From Aeromicrobium marinum DSM 15272 (lineage in GTDB: Bacteria; Actinomycetota; Actinomycetes; Propionibacteriales; Nocardioidaceae), in contig NZ_CM001024.1 of the NCBI RefSeq assembly GCF_000160775.2, positions 2,818,691 through 2,882,690 of the forward strand: a stretch of DNA of 64,000 bases, in the 5' to 3' direction. The notes beneath the pieces were generated by a model. The model ran no database searches and was not told where the DNA came from. It saw nothing but the letters and a program-made list of their open reading frames with translations. Made by a program: the position numbers and the translations under genes. Position 1 is the first letter of the stretch. Each line of letters starts with the position of its first letter. Shown here in pieces: positions 33,688 to 41,567 of the stretch.

Positions 33688-34779
33688 TTGCGCGTCGCCG
33701 TGCTGATGACCGGCCTGACGGCCTACCAGGACACCTGTTTCCAGCAGCTGAGTGAGCTGGGCAACGACCTGCTGCTGGTCCATCCCGGGTCGATGCCGTT
33801 CGCGCCCTTCGGCGAGGACAGTTTCAACCGCACGGTGCAGCGGCTCGTCTGGGACGACGCCATGCCTACACCGGACGAGCTCCTGCCCGTGCTGGAGGCC
33901 TTCGACCCGGACGTCGTCATCATGTGGTCCTGGGACGGCAAGGGCTACCGCGCCGCGATGAAGCGCTACCGGGGCCGGGCGCTCCGCGTGATCTTCACCA
34001 GCAACTTCTGGCACGGCAGCCTCAAGCAGTGGGCCGGCCTCCTCGCCGGCCGGTTCTACGTGCTCCCGCTGTTCGATGCCGCCTGGGTGCCGGGCGAGCG
34101 GTCCGAGCTGTTCGCCCGCCGGATCGGCTTCGAGGGTCGACAGATCATCCGCGGGGCCAACTCGGCCGACACGCCGAAGTTCGACCGCGGCGCCCGGGAC
34201 ACCGCCGAGCTCGCCGGCCGGCGCCGGTTCCTGTTCACCGGGCGGCTGATCTGGCACAAGGCCCCGGCCGAGCTCGCCGAGGCCTACCGCCGGTACCGCG
34301 AGCTGGTCGACGACCCGTGGGACCTCGACGTCGCCGGCGACGGTCCGCTCCGCACGGCCTTCGAGGGGGTCCCGGGGGTCCGCATGCACGGATTCGTGCA
34401 GCCGGCCGACCTCGCGGACCTCATGCACACCTCGTCGTGCTTCCTGCTCCCCTCGCACCTGGAGTGGTACGGCGTCGTCGTCCACGAGGCCGCCGTGGCC
34501 GGGCTCCCGGTCATCTGCTCCGACGGGGTGGGAGCGGTGCCGCACCTGCTGCAGGACGGGTTCAACGGCTGGACGGTGCCGGCCGGCGACACCGAGGCGC
34601 TCACCGAGGCGATGGTCCGGATGTCCTCGGTCGACACGACCCGGCTCGCGGCGATGTCGGCGGGCAGCCGCGCCCTGGGCAGTCGTCTGTCCCCGACCAT
34701 CTGGGCCCAGAACCTGCACGAACAGCTGGAGTCGCGGCTGCACAAGGGTGACTGGCGATCGAAGGAGACGGTCCGATGA
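33688..34779 (+). CDS. Glycosyltransferase, GT4 family
   Basis: 363-aa retaining GT-B enzyme: LFTGRLIWHKAPAELAEAYRRY starts the donor domain. LPSHLEWYGVVVHEAAVAGLPVIC has the EX7E-like pair and phosphate-binding context of GT4 enzymes. Initiation is at TTG 33688, decided by GAGGAGGAG at 33675-33683 and the fact that no ATG or GTG fits the domain start. The stop overlaps the next start (ATGA), coupling it to the FkbM methyltransferase. Confidence 0.82.
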   Translation: MRVAVLMTGLTAYQDTCFQQLSELGNDLLLVHPGSMPFAPFGEDSFNRTVQRLVWDDAMPTPDELLPVLEAFDPDVVIMWSWDGKGYRAAMKRYRGRALRVIFTSNFWHGSLKQWAGLLAGRFYVLPLFDAAWVPGERSELFARRIGFEGRQIIRGANSADTPKFDRGARDTAELAGRRRFLFTGRLIWHKAPAELAEAYRRYRELVDDPWDLDVAGDGPLRTAFEGVPGVRMHGFVQPADLADLMHTSSCFLLPSHLEWYGVVVHEAAVAGLPVICSDGVGAVPHLLQDGFNGWTVPAGDTEALTEAMVRMSSVDTTRLAAMSAGSRALGSRLSPTIWAQNLHEQLESRLHKGDWRSKETVR

Positions 34780-35501
34780 GCGCACGACACCGCGTGGTGG
34801 CCGCGGTCGCGACCCGGCTCGGCCGCCGCGGCTTCGAGCTGCGTCGGCACTCGGCGGTGCGCCGCCAGTCGGTGCTGACCCGCCACGGGGTCGACCTCGT
34901 CCTCGACGTCGGCGCCGCCGGCGGCGGCTACGGCTCGTCGTTGCGAGCCTTCGGCTACACCGGCGACATCGTGTCCTTCGAGCCGTTGTCGACCCCCTTC
35001 GCCGACCTGGGCGCCGTGATCGCCGGCGACCCCCGGTGGACGGCCCGCAACGTCGCGCTGGGGCAGGAGGCCGGGGAGGTCGTCATCAACGTGGCGTCCA
35101 ACAGCACCAGCAGCTCGATCCTGCCGATGCTCGACGCCCACGTCGACGCCGCACCGCAGGTGACCTACGTCGGGACCGAGACCGTGACCGTCGCCCGGCT
35201 CGACGACGAGGCCCGCGAGGTGGTGGCCGGTCACCGGCGCCCGTTCCTCAAGATCGACACGCAGGGTTTCGAGCGCGAGGTGCTCGCGGGAGGTGCGGAC
35301 ACCGTCGCGGCCTGCGTCGGGCTCCAGCTCGAGCTGTCGCTCGTGCCGCTCTACGGCGGCGGCATGCTGATCGACGAGGCCGTCTCGTGGGCGTACGACC
35401 ACGGGTTCCGGATGGTCGGGCTCGAGCAGGGCTACGCGGCGCCCACGGGGGAGATCCTGCAGATCGACGGCGTGTTCGTCCGAGCCGACCCGGCGGCCTG
35501 A
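34776..35501 (+). CDS. FkbM-family SAM methyltransferase (1)
   Basis: 241-aa sugar O-methyltransferase candidate. Motif I LVLDVGAAGGGYGSSLRAFG, acidic loop FEPLS, the FkbM-type LKIDTQGFEREVLAG and LQLELSLVPLYGGGMLIDEA, and an ending LQIDGVFVRAD. It is clearly paralogous to the protein encoded at 43582-44328, which shares the KIDTQGFE, LQLELS and QxDGxFVR blocks. FkbM enzymes methylate hydroxyls of sugars or polyketides. Confidence 0.85.
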   Translation: MSARHRVVAAVATRLGRRGFELRRHSAVRRQSVLTRHGVDLVLDVGAAGGGYGSSLRAFGYTGDIVSFEPLSTPFADLGAVIAGDPRWTARNVALGQEAGEVVINVASNSTSSSILPMLDAHVDAAPQVTYVGTETVTVARLDDEAREVVAGHRRPFLKIDTQGFEREVLAGGADTVAACVGLQLELSLVPLYGGGMLIDEAVSWAYDHGFRMVGLEQGYAAPTGEILQIDGVFVRADPAA

Positions 35502-35524: not shown

Positions 35525-36109
35525 GTGTCGAAATCGTCCGTTCCCACCGCCTCGGACCAGCTCGGTTTCAGCCAGCTCGTCCTCTCCGACTACGCGCGGT
35601 ACCGGCCGGGTGGCAAGGCCGGTTGGCTGCACGTCCTGCTGCGTCTGCCGTCGACCCCCGGGCTGCTGGCCTCGATCATCCTGCGCGCCCAGCAGTGCCT
35701 GTTCAGGTCGGGCCGGGTCAACCTGGCGCACGCACTGCGGACGCCCGCCAACGTGCTGGTCGGCTGTGACTTCGGCGCCGGCATGCAGGTGGGGCGCGGC
35801 TTCATGATGGTGCACCCGGTCGGCACGACCATCGGCTTCGGACTGGTCATCGGCGACGACGTGACCTTCGCCGGCGGGGTCACCTGCGCGGCCCGGCACT
35901 ACGACCCGAAGCCCGGTCAGGAGCAGGAGTTCCCCACGATCTGCGACGGGGCCGTCATCGGTGCGGGCGCCGTGCTCGTCGGCGGCGTGCGCATCGGGAC
36001 CAACGCCATGGTGGGTGCCAACGCGGTCGTGCTGTCCGACGTGCCCGACGACGCGGTCGTGATGGGCTCGCCCGCCCGCCGGGTCGGCACCCGGGAGGCG
36101 GCTTCATGA
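35525..36109 (+). CDS. Left-handed beta-helix (hexapeptide) acyltransferase
   Basis: 194-aa transferase. A helical N-terminus (1-65) is followed by hexapeptide repeats: VGCDFGAGMQVGRGFMMVH, TIGFGLVIGDDVTFAGGV, CDGAVIGAGAVLVGGVRIG, GTNAMVGANAVVLSDV. The catalytic-type histidines are in MMVHPVG and ARHYD, as in serine O-acetyltransferases and sugar acyltransferases. In this setting it probably O- or N-acylates a sugar. The acyl donor may be acetyl-CoA or the acyl carrier protein encoded 0.9 kb downstream. Leaderless GTG. The stop overlaps the next start (ATGA). Confidence 0.8.
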   Translation: MSKSSVPTASDQLGFSQLVLSDYARYRPGGKAGWLHVLLRLPSTPGLLASIILRAQQCLFRSGRVNLAHALRTPANVLVGCDFGAGMQVGRGFMMVHPVGTTIGFGLVIGDDVTFAGGVTCAARHYDPKPGQEQEFPTICDGAVIGAGAVLVGGVRIGTNAMVGANAVVLSDVPDDAVVMGSPARRVGTREAAS

Positions 36110-36963
36110 ACGACGACCTGGTGGGCTACGACCCCGCACCGCACTACGACCGCATCACGGCCGCCTGGCAGCTGCTCCTCGGCGACGAGCTGCACTACGG
36201 AGTCTTCGACTCCGGCGACGAGCCGTTGCCCGTCGCCACCCGGGCGCTGACCGCACGGATGATCGACGGCGGCCGGCTCGCCGACCCCGCCCCGCACGGA
36301 GGCCCGTTGCGGGTGCTCGACGTCGGCTGCGGCTCCGGTGCACCGGCGTGCGAGCTGGCCACCGACCACGGCGTCGAGGTGGTGGGCATCACGACCAGCG
36401 CCGTCGGCGTCGCGACCGCTCGGGCCCGCGCCGCCGACCTCGGTCTGTCCGGGGTCTCCTTCGAGCAGCGCGACGGCACCGACAACGGCTTCGACGACGC
36501 GCAGTTCGACCGGGCGTGGGTGCTGGAGTCGTCACACCTCATGCGCGACAAGGACGCCCTGGTCTCCGAGTGCGCCCGGGTGCTGCGCCCCGGCGGCCGG
36601 CTCGTGCTGTGCGACCTCGTGCGGTGGCGCGAGATCGGCTTCGCCGAGGTGCGGGAGCGTCGGGTCGACTTCGCGGTGCTGCGGGACGCGTTCGGCGACG
36701 CGCACTTCCGCACCCTCGACGACTACGCGGCGCTGGCGGAGTCCCACGGGCTCGTCGTCGACCGCGTCGACGACCTCACGGCCCTCACCCTGCCGACGTT
36801 CGACCGCTGGCGCGCCAACGCCGACCTGCACCACGACGCCGTCGTGGAGCTGATCGGCACCGAGGGCCACACCGCCTTCGTCCGCTCGTGCGACATCCTC
36901 GAGCAGTTCTGGCGGGACGGCACCTTCGGGTACGGGCTGATCTCCGCCACCCGGCCGACATGA
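36106..36963 (+). CDS. Class I SAM methyltransferase (Coq5/UbiE or small-molecule type)
   Basis: 285-aa enzyme with motif I RVLDVGCGSGAPACELA, motif II VSFEQRDGTDNGFDDAQFDRAWVLES and motif III RVLRPGGRLVLCDLV. The N-terminal YDRITAAWQLLLGDELHYGVFDSGDEPL is typical of the cyclopropane/gamma-tocopherol type group that methylates small molecules or lipids and not DNA. Coupled to the hexapeptide transferase and lying just before the acyl carrier protein, it may act on the carrier-bound acyl group or on a sugar. Confidence 0.78.
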   Translation: MNDDLVGYDPAPHYDRITAAWQLLLGDELHYGVFDSGDEPLPVATRALTARMIDGGRLADPAPHGGPLRVLDVGCGSGAPACELATDHGVEVVGITTSAVGVATARARAADLGLSGVSFEQRDGTDNGFDDAQFDRAWVLESSHLMRDKDALVSECARVLRPGGRLVLCDLVRWREIGFAEVRERRVDFAVLRDAFGDAHFRTLDDYAALAESHGLVVDRVDDLTALTLPTFDRWRANADLHHDAVVELIGTEGHTAFVRSCDILEQFWRDGTFGYGLISATRPT

Positions 36964-37027
36964 CAGGATGGCCCCGTCACCGCGCCCCGCGGACAGCCCC
37001 GGACCCGCCACGAGAAATGAGCGACTC

Positions 37028-37279
37028 ATGAGCCCCACGGCCGCCGCCATCGAGACCACGGTCGTCGACTTCCTGACCGAGCTCGGCAAGCTCCCCGCCG
37101 ACTTCGGGCCCGAGACCCCGTTGTACGCCGACGGGGCGGGCCTCGACTCGCTGGAGACCGCCGAGCTGTCGGCGATGCTCGAGGACGTCCACGGCAGCGA
37201 CCCGTACTCCACGGGCGAGATGCCGCAGACCCTCGGGGAGATCCTGGCCTTCTACGCGGGCGCCGGCGCCCAGGCCTGA
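37028..37279 (+). CDS. Stand-alone acyl carrier protein
   Basis: 83-aa four-helix carrier. The phosphopantetheine attachment serine is Ser41 in GAGLDSLETAELS, preceded by the acidic ETPLYADG loop typical of carrier proteins. Not the fatty-acid AcpP context: it sits between a methyltransferase and an AMP-forming ligase inside a glycan cluster. It probably carries an acyl or aminoacyl group activated by the next gene's product. ATG at 37028. Confidence 0.88.
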   Translation: MSPTAAAIETTVVDFLTELGKLPADFGPETPLYADGAGLDSLETAELSAMLEDVHGSDPYSTGEMPQTLGEILAFYAGAGAQA

Positions 37280-37285
37280 CCCCCC

Positions 37286-38653
37286 TTGTACGAACTGATC
37301 GACCGGATCGCCGGGGCTGACCCGGACCGCCCGGCGATCGTGACCCACGCGGGCAGCCGGTCCTACGCCGAGCTGGCCGCCGACGCCCGCCGGGTTGCTG
37401 CGGCGTTGCGGGCCGAGGGGATCACCCGGTTCGCGATCGTCGACCACGACGCGGACGTGGTGGTCGCGCTGGTGGCCGGTGCCGCGCTCGCCGGTGTCGA
37501 GGCGTGCCAGTACCCGCCGGCCGAGCCCTCCGAGGTCGCCGAGCTGCTCGGCCGGTTCGACCACGACGTCCTCGTGACCGACCGTGTCGACCTCGCCGAC
37601 CTCGGGGCCCGGGTCCTCGCCTCGGCGGTGCTCGTCGGTGGCACCGACGACCGGGCGCCGGACCGGGCGCCGGTCGACGCCCGACCCCACCTCGTGCTGA
37701 CGACCGGGACCACCGGTGCGCCCCGCGGGGTGCGGCACGACTGGAGCCGGCTGCTGCGCGGAACCCCTCGGGTCCGGCCGGCCGCGGGCGAGCGCTGGCT
37801 GCTGGCCTACGGTCTGCACCAGTTCGCCGGACTGCAGGTGCTGCTGCACGTGTTCGCCGCCGGTGCCACGCTGGTCGCCCCGGCTCCCCGGCGTCCGCTG
37901 GAGGGTCTGGCGGCGATGCGCGCGCTGGGCGTCACCCACGCCAGCGCCACGCCGACGTACTGGCGGTTCCTGCTGGCCGAGATGCGCTCCGACGGGGGGC
38001 CGGTCCCGGCACTGCAGCAGGTGACCCTGGGCGGCGAGGCCATTCCCGGACCGCTCCTGCAGGACCTGCGGCGCACGTTCCCCGACGCCGCCGTGTCGCA
38101 GGTGTACGCCGCCAGCGAGTTCGGTTCCACGGGGTCCATGCGCGACGGCCGGCCCGGACTGTCGGTCTCGGTGCTCGACCGTGGCGACGACGCCGACGTC
38201 GACATGCGGGTGGTCGACGGCGAGCTGTGGATCCGCTCGCGGGCCGGCATGCTCGGCTACTACGGCGAGCCACCGGTCGACGCGGACGCCTGGCGGCCCA
38301 CCGGTGACCGCGTCGAGATCGACGGTGACCGGGTGCTGTTCCGCGGCCGGACCTCCGAGATCATCAACGTCGGTGGCGTCAAGGTGCACCCCCTGCCGAT
38401 CGAGGAGCGGGTGTCGGCCGTGCCCGGCGTCGACATGGCGCGGGTCCACGGGCGTCCCAACCCGATGACCGGGGCGATCGTCGCCCTGGAGGTCGTGGCG
38501 GCCCCGGGGTCCGACCAGCAGGCGCTGAAGGCCGCCATCCGGGCGGCGTGCGAGGATCTCCCCGCGGCAGCGCGGCCGCGCAGCATCCGTTTCGTCGACG
38601 ACATCGTCACCGCCGGCAGCAAGATCGTCAGGAGACAGACCAGTGAGCACTGA
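37286..38653 (+). CDS. AMP-forming acyl-ACP/acyl-CoA ligase
   Basis: 455-aa ANL-superfamily adenylation enzyme, short for acyl-CoA synthetases (usually 500-550 aa) and close to carrier-loading ligases. P-loop LTTGTTGAPRGVRHD, A5-type YAASEFGSTG, A7/A8 hinge GRTSEIINVGGVKVHP, and the C-terminal catalytic lysine in TAGSKIVRR. Expected to load a small carboxylic acid onto the adjacent carrier protein. TTG start 6 nt after the carrier stop. The last 11 nt overlap the reductase gene. Confidence 0.83.
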   Translation: MYELIDRIAGADPDRPAIVTHAGSRSYAELAADARRVAAALRAEGITRFAIVDHDADVVVALVAGAALAGVEACQYPPAEPSEVAELLGRFDHDVLVTDRVDLADLGARVLASAVLVGGTDDRAPDRAPVDARPHLVLTTGTTGAPRGVRHDWSRLLRGTPRVRPAAGERWLLAYGLHQFAGLQVLLHVFAAGATLVAPAPRRPLEGLAAMRALGVTHASATPTYWRFLLAEMRSDGGPVPALQQVTLGGEAIPGPLLQDLRRTFPDAAVSQVYAASEFGSTGSMRDGRPGLSVSVLDRGDDADVDMRVVDGELWIRSRAGMLGYYGEPPVDADAWRPTGDRVEIDGDRVLFRGRTSEIINVGGVKVHPLPIEERVSAVPGVDMARVHGRPNPMTGAIVALEVVAAPGSDQQALKAAIRAACEDLPAAARPRSIRFVDDIVTAGSKIVRRQTSEH

Positions 38654-39422
38654 GACCAACGGGACTGAGACCAACGGAACCGGGACCAACGGGACCGGAC
38701 CCCGGATCGTCATCGTGACCGGCGGCAGCCGGGGCCTCGGCGCCGGCATCGTCGCGTCCTACCTCGCGTCCGGCGACCGGGTCGCGGCGTGCGCGCGCTC
38801 GGTCACCCCCGAGGTCGAGGCCTGGCGCGAGCAGTACCCCGACCACTTCCTGTTCGCCCCGGCCGACCTCTCCAGCTCCGCCGACGCGAAGGCGTTCGTC
38901 GACGCCGTCATCGACCGCTGGGACCGGGTGGACGTGCTGATCAACAACGCCGGTGTCGCCCGCGACGGCATCCTGGGGATGGCCAGCGACGAGGACATCG
39001 ACGTGGTCGTCGACCTCAACATCAAGGGCACCCTGTACATGTCGCGCCTGGTGAGCCGGCGGATGCTCGCCCGTCGGTCCGGCTCGATCGTCAACATCTC
39101 GTCGATCGTGGGCCGGTCCGGGTACCGCGGGCTCGGCGTCTACAGCGCCACCAAGGCCGCGCTCGACGGGCTGACGCGGTCGATGGCCCGCGAGCTGGGA
39201 TCCCGCGGCATCACGGTCAACGGCATCGCCCCCGGCTACCTGAGGACCGAGATGAGCCATGGCCTCGACGAGGGCCAGATGGACCAGATCGTGCGGCGCA
39301 CCCCGGCCGGACGGCTCGGCGACCCCGACGACATCGCGCGGGTGTGCCAGTTCCTGACCGATCCGCGCAACGACTACCTGACCGGCCAGGTGATCGTGGT
39401 CGACGGCGGCCTCACGAGCTGA
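38643..39422 (+). CDS. FabG-like short-chain dehydrogenase/reductase
   Basis: 259-aa classical SDR with TGGSRGLGAGI (cofactor loop), LINNAGVARDGI, catalytic Ser in VNISSIVGRSGYRGLGVYSATKAAL-type block (Ser, Tyr, Lys all present) and C-terminal GQVIVVDGG. Closest in pattern to 3-oxoacyl-ACP reductases. After the carrier and ligase, it may reduce a carrier-bound 3-oxoacyl group. The N-terminus has a peculiar ETNGT repeat from three 15-bp DNA repeats that precedes the true fold. GTG start overlapping the ligase. Confidence 0.87.
   Translation: MSTETNGTETNGTGTNGTGPRIVIVTGGSRGLGAGIVASYLASGDRVAACARSVTPEVEAWREQYPDHFLFAPADLSSSADAKAFVDAVIDRWDRVDVLINNAGVARDGILGMASDEDIDVVVDLNIKGTLYMSRLVSRRMLARRSGSIVNISSIVGRSGYRGLGVYSATKAALDGLTRSMARELGSRGITVNGIAPGYLRTEMSHGLDEGQMDQIVRRTPAGRLGDPDDIARVCQFLTDPRNDYLTGQVIVVDGGLTS
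38652..38696 (+). repeat. Three 15-bp in-frame tandem repeats in the reductase N-terminus
   Basis: Units GAGACCAACGGGACT, GAGACCAACGGAACC and GGGACCAACGGGACC (38652-38666, 38667-38681, 38682-38696) encode Glu/Gly-Thr-Asn-Gly-Thr repeats ahead of the Rossmann fold. Confidence 0.9.
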
Positions 39423-40689
39423 CCACCCGTGGGGTCCGCCGCACCGCGACCCCGAGGGCCAGACAGCTCAGCACCGCGACCACCACCATCGACATGCCCA
39501 CCGCCGGCAGCTCGTCGGCCAGGGACGCCACGACGATTCCGGCCGCGAGCACCGGGGTGAGGGCGAGCTCGATCCAGGAGGCCGTCGTGCCGCGCCCCTG
39601 ACCCTGGAGCACGGCGATGAGCACCTTCCGGACCCCGAAGAAGCCGTCGGCCACGATGAGCCACCTCGCGACCTCGACGGCTCCGACGAACTCCTCGCCG
39701 AAGGCCAGCCGGATGACCGGCTCGACGACGACCTGCAGGGCGACGACGACCAGCGCCACGAACACGACCGTGAGACCGATCCACCGGCGGGCGACGGCTC
39801 GTTGGGCGGCCGGGTCGTCATGGCTGCGGGCGACCTGGGGCAGCACGATGATCGCCACCGCGTTGCCGACGATCCCGCACAGGTTGGCCACGGCGATGGC
39901 CGAGGCGTAGAGACCCAGAGCCGCGTTGCCGAGCAGACCGCCGACCAGGATCCGGTCGAGCCCGATGCTGTCCAGCGGTCGCACGCTGCTCACGTAGGTC
40001 TGGCGGGCGTCGGTCCACAGCCGGGACTCGTCGAGGGCGTCCTCGGCGCGGCCGGTGGGAGGAGCCAGGGCGAGCACGGCGACGAGCAGGCCGACGGTCG
40101 AGACGCCGATGAAGGCCGCCAGCACCGCCTCCGGGCTCCACGACCAGCCGGCCACCCAGACGGTGCCGAGGACCAGCACGTAGAGCGCGTGCGGCACGAG
40201 CGCCACGACGACCATCCGCTCCAGGGCGTTGATCTCGCCCTGGAGCGCCGCGATCAGCAGCCGGGAGGCGATGGTCTGCAGGGTCAGCACCAGCACGATC
40301 GCGGCCACCGCGACGGTGTCGGTCGACGGGTCGTCGCGCGACAGCCAGGCGAGTCCGCCGGCGACGGCCACCGCGGGGATCAGCACGAGCCAGCCACGAC
40401 GTCGCACGATCCCCCGCAGCCCGTCGCGCGTGGCGACCCGGCGCTCGGCGATGTTCTTGGCCAGCGCCGTCGGCAGACTGCCGCCGAAGGTCAGCTGCGA
40501 GGCGAGCAGGCTCAGCGCGAACACCAGGGCGACGACACCACGACCCTCGACGCCGAGGATGCGTGCGGTGACGATGCCGGTCACGGTGGTCAGCGCCTGC
40601 AGACCGAAGGTCCCGACGATGACGACGACGGCGGTGCGCGCGGTGCCGGGACCACGCGGAGCCGGGGTTGCTCCACCCTCGTCGGTCAC
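39412..40689 (-). CDS. Oligosaccharide flippase family protein (Wzx/MATE-like)
   Basis: 425-aa polytopic membrane protein with about twelve to fourteen helices; TARILGVEGRGVVALVFALSLLASQLTFGG near the N-terminus is the characteristic polysaccharide-exporter (PST/MVF) segment. Expected to flip lipid-linked oligosaccharides to the outer membrane leaflet. Opposite in orientation to the surrounding genes. Its 3' end overlaps the reductase gene by 11 nt. GTG start with a leaderless TATGCT box. Confidence 0.83.
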   Translation of the reverse strand: MTDEGGATPAPRGPGTARTAVVVIVGTFGLQALTTVTGIVTARILGVEGRGVVALVFALSLLASQLTFGGSLPTALAKNIAERRVATRDGLRGIVRRRGWLVLIPAVAVAGGLAWLSRDDPSTDTVAVAAIVLVLTLQTIASRLLIAALQGEINALERMVVVALVPHALYVLVLGTVWVAGWSWSPEAVLAAFIGVSTVGLLVAVLALAPPTGRAEDALDESRLWTDARQTYVSSVRPLDSIGLDRILVGGLLGNAALGLYASAIAVANLCGIVGNAVAIIVLPQVARSHDDPAAQRAVARRWIGLTVVFVALVVVALQVVVEPVIRLAFGEEFVGAVEVARWLIVADGFFGVRKVLIAVLQGQGRGTTASWIELALTPVLAAGIVVASLADELPAVGMSMVVVAVLSCLALGVAVRRTPRVVSS

Positions 40690-40695
40690 GGGTGC

Positions 40696-40701
40696 AGCAT
40701 A
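40696..40701 (-). promoter_or_regulatory. -10 box TATGCT, leaderless start of flippase gene
   Basis: Minus-strand TATGCT, 6 nt before the GTG at 40689. Confidence 0.5.
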
Positions 40702-40748
40702 CTTTCCCTGTCGCCCAGGTGATCCGAACCCCGACCGATGGAGGCTCA

Positions 40749-41567
40749 GTGCCGACGCCCCGCCCGCTCCCCGTCCGCGTGCTCGTGAAGGGTCCGTCCA
40801 CCGTCAACTGGATCTCGTGGATGGGCGGGCCACGGCAGGACATGGCCTTCCCGCGGGTCATCGAGGAGCAGTTGCTGGAGGCCGGTCGCGCCGCCGAGGT
40901 CCGGGCCATCACCATGACCTCGGAGAAGGCGTCCTGGCTGTTGCGGACCTGGCAGCGCGAGGTCCTCGGGTACTCGCCGGACGTCATCGTCCTCACCTAC
41001 GGGCACTACGAGTCGGTGCACCTGTTCCTGCCCCGCTGGCTCGAGCGGCACGGCAACAGCCTGAAGGGCCGCAGCGGTCGCGGGCGGCGCCTGTACCGCC
41101 GGCTCGTCGTGCGACCGGTCTGGCGCGGGCTGGCCCACCTGCAGGCGAAGGTCGACAGCGTGGTCGGTCCCCACGTGGGGGTCCGCAGGGCACGCCGGGT
41201 CGCGGCCGACATCGAGCAGTACGTGCACCGGGTCCAGCAGGTCGGGAGTCCGATGGTCCTGGTGTTCGAGGTCCTGCCGCCGGGCCCCCGGGTCACCGGA
41301 TGGTTCCCCGGCATGGCCCGCCGCATCGAGCTGGTCAACCGGGAGTTCGCGGCGATGGTCGAACGCATCGGGCTCGACCACGTGCGACTCTTCCCCGTCA
41401 TGCCCCTGGCCGAGAAGTACGCCGACGGCGACATGGGGCTGGCCGAGCCCGACGGGTTCCACTACTCGCCGGTGCTGCACCGCGGCATCGGTGAGGCGCT
41501 CGCGCGGGAGATCGACGCCTGGGCCGGCACCCAGTCGCATCTCTCCGATCTCGGCTCGGACGGTTGA
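40749..41567 (+). CDS. SGNH-hydrolase-like protein in glycan cluster
   Basis: 272-aa protein. It begins with a beta strand and VKGPSTVNWISWMGG, where the family has its block I serine, continues with VIVLTYGHYESVHLF (block II/III-like) and ends with the block V pattern EPDGFHYSPVLHRGIG containing Asp-x-x-His. This suggests a GDSL/SGNH esterase or acyltransferase fold, but block I is unusual, so catalysis is uncertain. No signal peptide. Possibly removes or adds O-acyl groups on the glycan. Confidence 0.55.
   Translation: MPTPRPLPVRVLVKGPSTVNWISWMGGPRQDMAFPRVIEEQLLEAGRAAEVRAITMTSEKASWLLRTWQREVLGYSPDVIVLTYGHYESVHLFLPRWLERHGNSLKGRSGRGRRLYRRLVVRPVWRGLAHLQAKVDSVVGPHVGVRRARRVAADIEQYVHRVQQVGSPMVLVFEVLPPGPRVTGWFPGMARRIELVNREFAAMVERIGLDHVRLFPVMPLAEKYADGDMGLAEPDGFHYSPVLHRGIGEALAREIDAWAGTQSHLSDLGSDG

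Follow-up and report, generated by a model that had tools for sequence, protein, structure and literature searches.

What is a set of genes for an acyl carrier protein (ACP), an adenosine monophosphate (AMP)-forming ligase, a FabG-like reductase, a methyltransferase and a hexapeptide-type acyltransferase doing inside a surface glycan cluster of an actinobacterium? This question is raised by a 64,000-nucleotide stretch of Aeromicrobium marinum DSM 15272 (contig NZ_CM001024.1, positions 2,818,691 to 2,882,690; the window), part of a 3.08-Mb genome in a single contig. At positions 35525-39422 of the window, five tightly packed genes lie on the forward strand in the order transferase, methyltransferase, ACP, ligase and reductase, and the functions and positions that an earlier sequence-only reading had given to them were borne out by gene calls, Pfam and NCBIfam. 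The answer favoured here, and held to be somewhat probable, is that the cassette would provide a hydroxyacyl group, in this locus perhaps a methoxyacyl group, for decoration of a surface glycan, beginning with the ligase and proceeding free of elongation.

In the proposed pathway, the substrate of the ligase would be a small carboxylic acid in free form, probably with a keto group; it would be activated as AMP ester and loaded whole onto Ser41 of the ACP. The FabG-like enzyme would then turn the keto group of this bound acid into a hydroxyl. An exchangeable enzyme, called here the cap and in this locus an O-methyltransferase, would modify a hydroxyl, perhaps the newly formed one on the acyl group and perhaps one on the sugar, and a beta-helix transferase resembling serine acetyltransferases (SAT-like) would pass the group on to a precursor of the glycan, at one of its hydroxyls. 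The parts of this reading carry different weight. ACP-dependent acyl decoration of a glycan as such is held with good confidence, and the absence of elongation in the genome of A. marinum is likely; O- rather than N-acylation is fairly probable, keto reduction on the ACP is favoured with modest confidence, and for the methyl group, placement on the acyl moiety rather than on the sugar has slightly less than an even chance. Support at the level of sequence comes from the gene order, the catalytic residues, the recurrence of the unit, the single cap gene near each core, the repeated exchange of this cap, the co-variation of transferase and cap, and the failure to find a true DegT aminotransferase or a discrete ketosynthase in the genome.

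Recurrence was assessed in 57 loci, which comprise the window, 16 loci from genome records and 40 stretches from 39 other genomes. Of the 58 genomes of the family with a ligase match, loci were taken from A. marinum itself and these 39 others, and the 16 genome-record loci probably overlap with the remaining 18; two loci from Bacillota and Clostridiales (L025 and L026; 22-25% identity) were excluded from all counts. Genes were called with a simple codon-based caller and grouped into families by BLAST. ACP, ligase and reductase were all present in 52 of the 57 loci by gene call and in 54 once L022 and L067 were judged by tblastn; in the former, the ligase frame is open and was missed by the caller, and in the latter, where the frame is broken, no ligase was called. 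A beta-helix transferase, either SAT-like or of a family named LbH6, was located near this core in 49 loci by gene call and in 50 when L062 was added by tblastn. Glycan marker families were found in 53 of the 57 loci, the exceptions being L021, L042, L044 and L051. Thus, the cassette travels as a unit, a point that the sequence-only reading had left to comparison with other genomes, and the block is more than chance because its genes recur one by one in relatives.

Residues conserved in the ligase, the ACP and the reductase would permit each of the proposed steps. Residue-level alignments included 41 of the 55 ligases, 37 of the 57 ACPs and 19 of the 25 SAT-like proteins. Ser41, already named as the carrier site in the sequence-only reading, was invariant in the 37 aligned ACPs, and the PP-binding score of the cassette ACP (20.9 bits) lies barely above the Pfam cut-off of 20.8. 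In the aligned ligases, the phosphate-binding loop was conserved, and Lys446 was invariant, as were Trp226 and Arg227, which may line the ligase pocket. The predicted model of the ligase (predicted local distance difference test, pLDDT, 87.4) has an ANL fold, and aryl-CoA ligases, DltA, nonribosomal peptide synthetase (NRPS) domains and MatB score close together in fold comparison. Against the curated family of AmcH, a 2-oxoglutaryl-ACP ligase, the protein reached 62.4 bits with a cut-off of 370 and is thus not assigned to it. Ser154, Tyr167, Lys171 and Asn102 of the reductase are present in every one of 54 sequences, and its first ~19 residues are not conserved in most relatives; it scored 226 bits, below the cut-off of 297.75, for the FabG family 3oxo_ACP_reduc (TIGR01830), and its closest match in the PDB was MupS (4yxf), an enzyme of mupirocin synthesis.

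The beta-helix protein was nearest to serine acetyltransferases and not of the PglD/NeuD type, with NCBIfam scores below cut-off for both EPS_EpsC (109.7 bits, cut-off 150) and cysE (97.3 bits, cut-off 210.65). Its catalytic His97 was invariant in the 19 aligned SAT-like proteins, and an AlphaFold model reached a pLDDT of 61.4. In comparison with 4n69, DH is changed to VH and DRHP to QEFP, by which both the Asp that binds serine, just ahead of the catalytic His, and the pair of Arg and His are lost, residues that we take to form the serine site of serine acetyltransferases. A function as serine acetyltransferase in cysteine synthesis was rejected since these serine-site residues are absent.

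The cap is the part of the cassette that changes. In the window it is MT36, whose best PDB matches were 3bus, presumably RebM, 6uv6 (a D-glucose O-methyltransferase) and MitM, so that it appears closest to sugar O-methyltransferases. Across the 57 loci, MT36 was found near the core in 28, a PapA-type protein in 18, a protein of the family OAT in eight and none of them in three, and never were two of these families found near one core. The 18 PapA-type loci are made up of 16 that were gene-called together with L052 and L067, in which the PapA match was full length (57%) and broken into pieces (up to 47%), respectively; both were assigned to PapA by hand for the kinship-corrected test described below, and L052 likewise on the ligase tree. 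L023, L024 and L044 had no cap near the core and no PapA match. The names of the families PapA, OAT and LbH6 were given from one to three scanned members and the BLAST grouping. The motif HHxxxDG was kept in 15 of the 16 PapA-type proteins, and OAT is a beta-helix protein of which the scanned member (L021) was closest to the O-acetyltransferases CatB and Vat. Methyltransferases, PapA-type acyltransferases and O-acetyltransferases of these families modify hydroxyls, and all three kinds of cap fit the hydroxyl that the reductase would produce. On the best ligase tree (55 rows, excluding L022 and L067), the type of cap, with "none" counted as a type, switches at least 12 times; 205 residues of the L052 ligase, whose start had been mis-set by the caller, were trimmed for the trees.

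The transferase varies together with the cap. In the 20 loci of the SAT set with both genes called, identity between SAT-like proteins was 49-62% in the 91 pairs that join an MT36 locus with a non-MT36 locus and 63-98% in the 99 pairs that stay inside one class, with ligase identity similar across these pair groups. The label MT36 or non-MT36 requires four changes on the ligase tree of the SAT set (20 rows) and one on the SAT tree (21 rows), and L019 retained a transferase of the MT class despite a rearranged gene order. Compared with the window, L071 shows 80% identity in the ligase, 94% in the reductase and 75% in the ACP, with only 54% in the SAT-like protein and OAT in place of MT36, and looks like a natural recombinant. 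A wider reading, judged possible and short of probable, is a Nocardioidaceae-specific, elongation-free module in which a carrier-bound hydroxyl would be finished by methyl, acetyl or a PapA-added acyl group, with a glycan transferase matched to the cap.

Several other explanations have been weighed against this pathway. An amino version, with either an amino acid as substrate of the ligase or an amino sugar as acceptor of the acyl group, draws on the ligase fold, which is common to DltA and NRPS adenylation domains, and on the vio and wfp cassettes, which N-acylate 4-amino sugars according to the accessible text of both reports (PMC3927599, PMC6519341). It is considered improbable. Phe180, nearly invariant in the 41 aligned ligases, is found at the NRPS position Asp235 (GrsA 235) in a gap-free reading between flanking anchors of the A4 stretch, made by hand where MAFFT had placed a gap. 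Asp at this position is presumably the amine-binding residue of amino-acid adenylation domains, and because the ligase has Phe180 where these domains carry Asp, an alpha-amino acid is disfavoured as its substrate. For the acceptor, seven proteins of the A. marinum genome matched the DegT family above the Pfam cut-off (26.7-36.9 bits), but all of them were other pyridoxal phosphate enzymes, namely aminotransferases of classes I/II and V, a Cys/Met enzyme and serine hydroxymethyltransferase; no true DegT aminotransferase was found in this genome, and the 3- or 4-amino sugar that usually serves as acceptor is therefore missing. A search of 31 cassette genomes identified true DegT enzymes (204-410 bits) in 19, with none at E<=1e-15 inside the cassette loci and the nearest ~56 kb away (G164). 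N-acylation of a 3- or 4-amino sugar appears unlikely in this locus, a glucosamine-type acceptor being compatible with the DegT result. Hence, of the carrier-derived group on a surface polymer that the sequence-only reading had proposed, the acyl form agrees with the glycan clusters and with the adjoining acyltransferase in most loci, whereas its aminoacyl option and the suggested sugar N-acylation were not supported. Even less probable is that the ACP is fed, in the manner of type II synthases, by elongation machinery encoded elsewhere, with the ligase only starting or recycling the chain. The FabG-like reductase with MupS as nearest solved structure would suit this view, as would the FabH-type enzymes that occur elsewhere in 22 of the 31 cassette genomes, all of them outside this genus. 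FabH was matched neither in the genome of A. marinum nor in seven other tested genomes of the genus, nor within any cassette locus of the 31 genomes covered by the search, and no ketosynthase was detected among the scanned window proteins. Non-FabH types were sought in the A. marinum genome only, where no discrete ketosynthase was found: six of seven matches to ketosynthase families were thiolases (21-36 bits), and the one strong match (98.7 bits) lies inside a 3019-residue type I fatty acid synthase beside AcpS (L085:1293-10352). With fatty acid synthesis of type I and no sign of a discrete ketosynthase in these searches, chain building on the cassette ACP is unlikely, and the ACP-bound acid would probably have as many carbons as the acid first loaded. 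On account of the type I synthase, a role of the cassette ACP as carrier for ordinary fatty acids was also rejected, and with it the loading for lipid synthesis that the sequence-only reading had named as contrary to its proposal became unlikely.

A stronger competitor, possible and still short of an even chance, is that the cap acts on the sugar, so that the core and the transferase would add a plain hydroxyacyl group and MT36, OAT or PapA would modify a sugar hydroxyl, as VioM reportedly does. The likeness of MT36 to a glucose O-methyltransferase and of OAT to CatB and Vat points in this direction. Deletion of vioM led to a demethylated modified viosamine, the name of which places the methyl group on O-2 of the sugar in the text available of PMC3927599, and since the viosamine methyl sits on the sugar, this explanation stays alive for MT36. 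By contrast, the cap gene stays by the ACP, ligase and reductase core across differing glycan contexts: MT36 lies at most two genes away in 28 of 28 cases and called PapA in 16 of 16, compared with 2 of 29 for FkbM methyltransferases, 1 of 23 for GT61, 258 of 825 for all non-core genes and just 8 of 13 for OAT. Further observations weigh against the pathway as proposed here. In L034, L040, L048, L049 and L050, a gene of the OAT family is located 3-8 kb off, beside MT36 or PapA. Mutual exclusion of the caps gave p ~3e-13 without kinship correction, and the corrected analysis, a weak test, left ~5 independent contrasts, none contrary, with p 0.0625; in the 55-row ligase tree, 18 of the 52 inner branches had weak support, and the three cap families were picked after the layouts had been seen; thus, their exclusion is a hypothesis for testing on new genomes. 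The co-variation of SAT-like protein and cap could be mere linked exchange because the two genes are neighbours, and in the LbH6 set, transferase and cap do not co-vary cleanly. One locus (L043) is devoid of the reductase, two others with the ligase (L042 and L044) lack both ACP and reductase, and neither SAT nor LbH6 was found nearby in seven of the 57 loci by gene call and tblastn. Neither the ANL fold nor the sequence of the ligase points to a substrate, and the reductase could act on a sugar or on another substrate instead. Other carrier domains were found in the A. marinum genome in proteins of 284, 851 and 1287 residues by a PP-binding search that was not exhaustive, as the carrier domain of the type I synthase itself escaped it.

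At the similarity considered here, and within the genomes sampled, the cassette is confined to one actinobacterial family. Within the genus, 17 of the 49 genomes had a ligase match (E<=1e-60); within the family, 58 of 341 did, belonging to 3 of 26 genera (E<=1e-70). The genome of A. marinum is counted in both figures, and it was the only one matched in a phylum-wide sample of 396 genomes (E<=1e-40). In the searches of family and phylum, four candidates per genome were scored. The closest ligase relatives with names come from Aeromicrobium. Frames of 925-1156 residues over eight ligase matches, one of them in L042, were considered as gene fusions, a reading rejected for the other seven because an opposite-strand PapA gene lies just upstream of the ligase in six of these loci (L052, L054, L057, L058, L059 and L063) and because the long frame of L067 is broken.

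Features of the cassette and its direct neighbours (positions in the window)
Feature	Position	Strand	Family match
FkbM-family methyltransferase, directly upstream of the cassette; glycan cluster member	34776..35501	+	Methyltransf_21
SAT-like acyltransferase of 194 aa with a left-handed beta-helix; proposed ACP-to-glycan acyl transfer	35525..36109	+	Hexapep (Pfam)
MT36, S-adenosylmethionine-dependent methyltransferase, 285 aa; cap enzyme of the locus	36106..36963	+	Methyltransf_11 (Pfam)
Dedicated ACP, 83 aa, phosphopantetheine Ser41	37028..37279	+	PP-binding (Pfam)
Short AMP-forming ligase, 455 aa, TTG start; proposed acid loading onto ACP	37286..38653	+	AMP-binding + AMP-binding_C (Pfam)
FabG-like short-chain reductase; proposed reduction of ACP-bound keto acid	38643..39422	+	adh_short (Pfam)
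Wzx-type flippase; glycan export	39412..40689	-	Polysacc_synt_3, 39.6 bits
GDSL/SGNH hydrolase-like protein; glycan cluster	40668..41567	+	Lipase_GDSL_2, 28 bits, below cut-off

Within the cassette, the genes for transferase and MT36 overlap by 4 bp and those for ligase and reductase by 11 bp. The surrounding cluster contains glycosyltransferases, a Wzc-type kinase and one protein with a weak O-antigen-ligase match in addition to the flippase, and the three FkbM methyltransferases (34776, 43582 and 49337) and the GMD-like and guanosine diphosphate (GDP)-fucose-synthase-like enzymes on which the sequence-only reading had relied are present in the window. The upstream FkbM methyltransferase is a conserved neighbour in many SAT-type loci, and the family of the GDSL/SGNH hydrolase was found in 17 loci. 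A protein of the GDSL lipase family (f57), with a lipoprotein-like start, occupies the position of the beta-helix acyltransferase beside MT36 in L035, L038 and L041; its member at L041:5720-6559 reached 88 bits for Lipase_GDSL_2. The protein may either replace the usual acyltransferase or act as an esterase. Genes of a sulfotransferase family were observed in 18 of the 57 loci, the scanned member (L053:2285-3346) matching Pfam Sulfotransfer_3 and Sulfotransfer_1, which suggests that some relatives of Nocardioides carry surface glycans that are sulfated. Outside recognisable glycan clusters, ligase relatives (L042:8009-9352 and L044:7930-9270) lie beside a luciferase-like monooxygenase, which was scanned in L044 and assigned by family grouping in L042. 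The A. marinum genome also encodes single proteins in which a ligase, a carrier and an acyltransferase-like part are joined, one of 1287 residues with AMP-binding, PP-binding and hexapeptide domains (L087:1151-5014) and one of 851 residues with AMP-binding, PP-binding and Acyl_transf_3 (L088:336-2891).

If the wider reading of a module with interchangeable caps holds true, a swap of the cap would let related species differ in the surface chemistry of one and the same polymer, and acyl groups shape the antigenicity of the surface glycan in Flavobacterium psychrophilum, as described in the accessible text of PMC6519341. The cassette offers a conserved enzyme set with a clear biochemical hypothesis. 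The function of the cap is testable because natural pairs such as L010 and L071 share a similar ligase, ACP and reductase and differ in cap and transferase class, and the pair of ACP and ligase is small enough for a direct assay.

Among known systems, the acyl group of kansosamine in Mycobacterium kansasii is 2-methoxypropionyl, which is O-methylated. The N-acyl kansosamine lipooligosaccharide of this species likewise belongs to the surface of an actinobacterium and bears an acyl group of small size; it differs in being built on an amino sugar, and genes for synthesis of the acyl group are not named in the text available of PMC4403928. For the ligase step, a precedent is given by AmcH, a stand-alone adenylate-forming enzyme that loads the keto acid 2-oxoglutarate directly on the dedicated ACP AmcB in the biosynthesis of cispentacin, although the 2-oxoglutaryl group then passes to a type II polyketide synthase (PMC10698177, from the part accessible). 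Closer in layout is the viosamine island of Pseudomonas syringae (vioA, vioB, vioM, vioR, vioS, vioT and acp), which yields a 3-hydroxybutyryl-type group and has in common an ACP, a FabG-like reductase, an acyltransferase and a methyltransferase in a glycosylation locus. As far as the accessible text goes (PMC3927599), it employs the ketosynthase III VioS where the Aeromicrobium cassette has an AMP ligase, and it N-acylates a 4-amino sugar made by the aminotransferase VioA, with the methyl group on the sugar, in a proteobacterial flagellin glycan. Similarly, the R-group genes wfpC-wfpG of the F. psychrophilum O-polysaccharide include a locus-specific ACP (wfpD), a ketoacyl reductase (wfpF) and an acyltransferase (wfpG) and vary between strains, in which they resemble the variable cassette. 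They differ by two ketosynthases (wfpC and wfpE), a PglD-type N-acyltransferase acting on Qui2NAc4N and a 3,5-dihydroxyhexanoyl product, and the word "ligase" is absent from the main text of that paper (PMC6519341). Measured against these ketosynthase-based islands, the A. marinum locus has the ACP in a glycan locus and the FabG-like reductase with Ser-Tyr-Lys, and it has neither a ketosynthase nor a sugar aminotransferase of its own. In the literature searched, with subscription papers mostly outside the search, no description of a ligase, ACP and reductase set in actinobacterial glycan loci was found. The undescribed pathway suspected in the sequence-only reading has thus been narrowed to a probable ligase-first form: ACP-dependent glycan acylation islands are already known from vio and wfp, with ketosynthases, in the parts of both reports that are accessible, and what sets this cassette apart from them is a ligase instead of the ketosynthases together with a cap enzyme that is swapped between loci.

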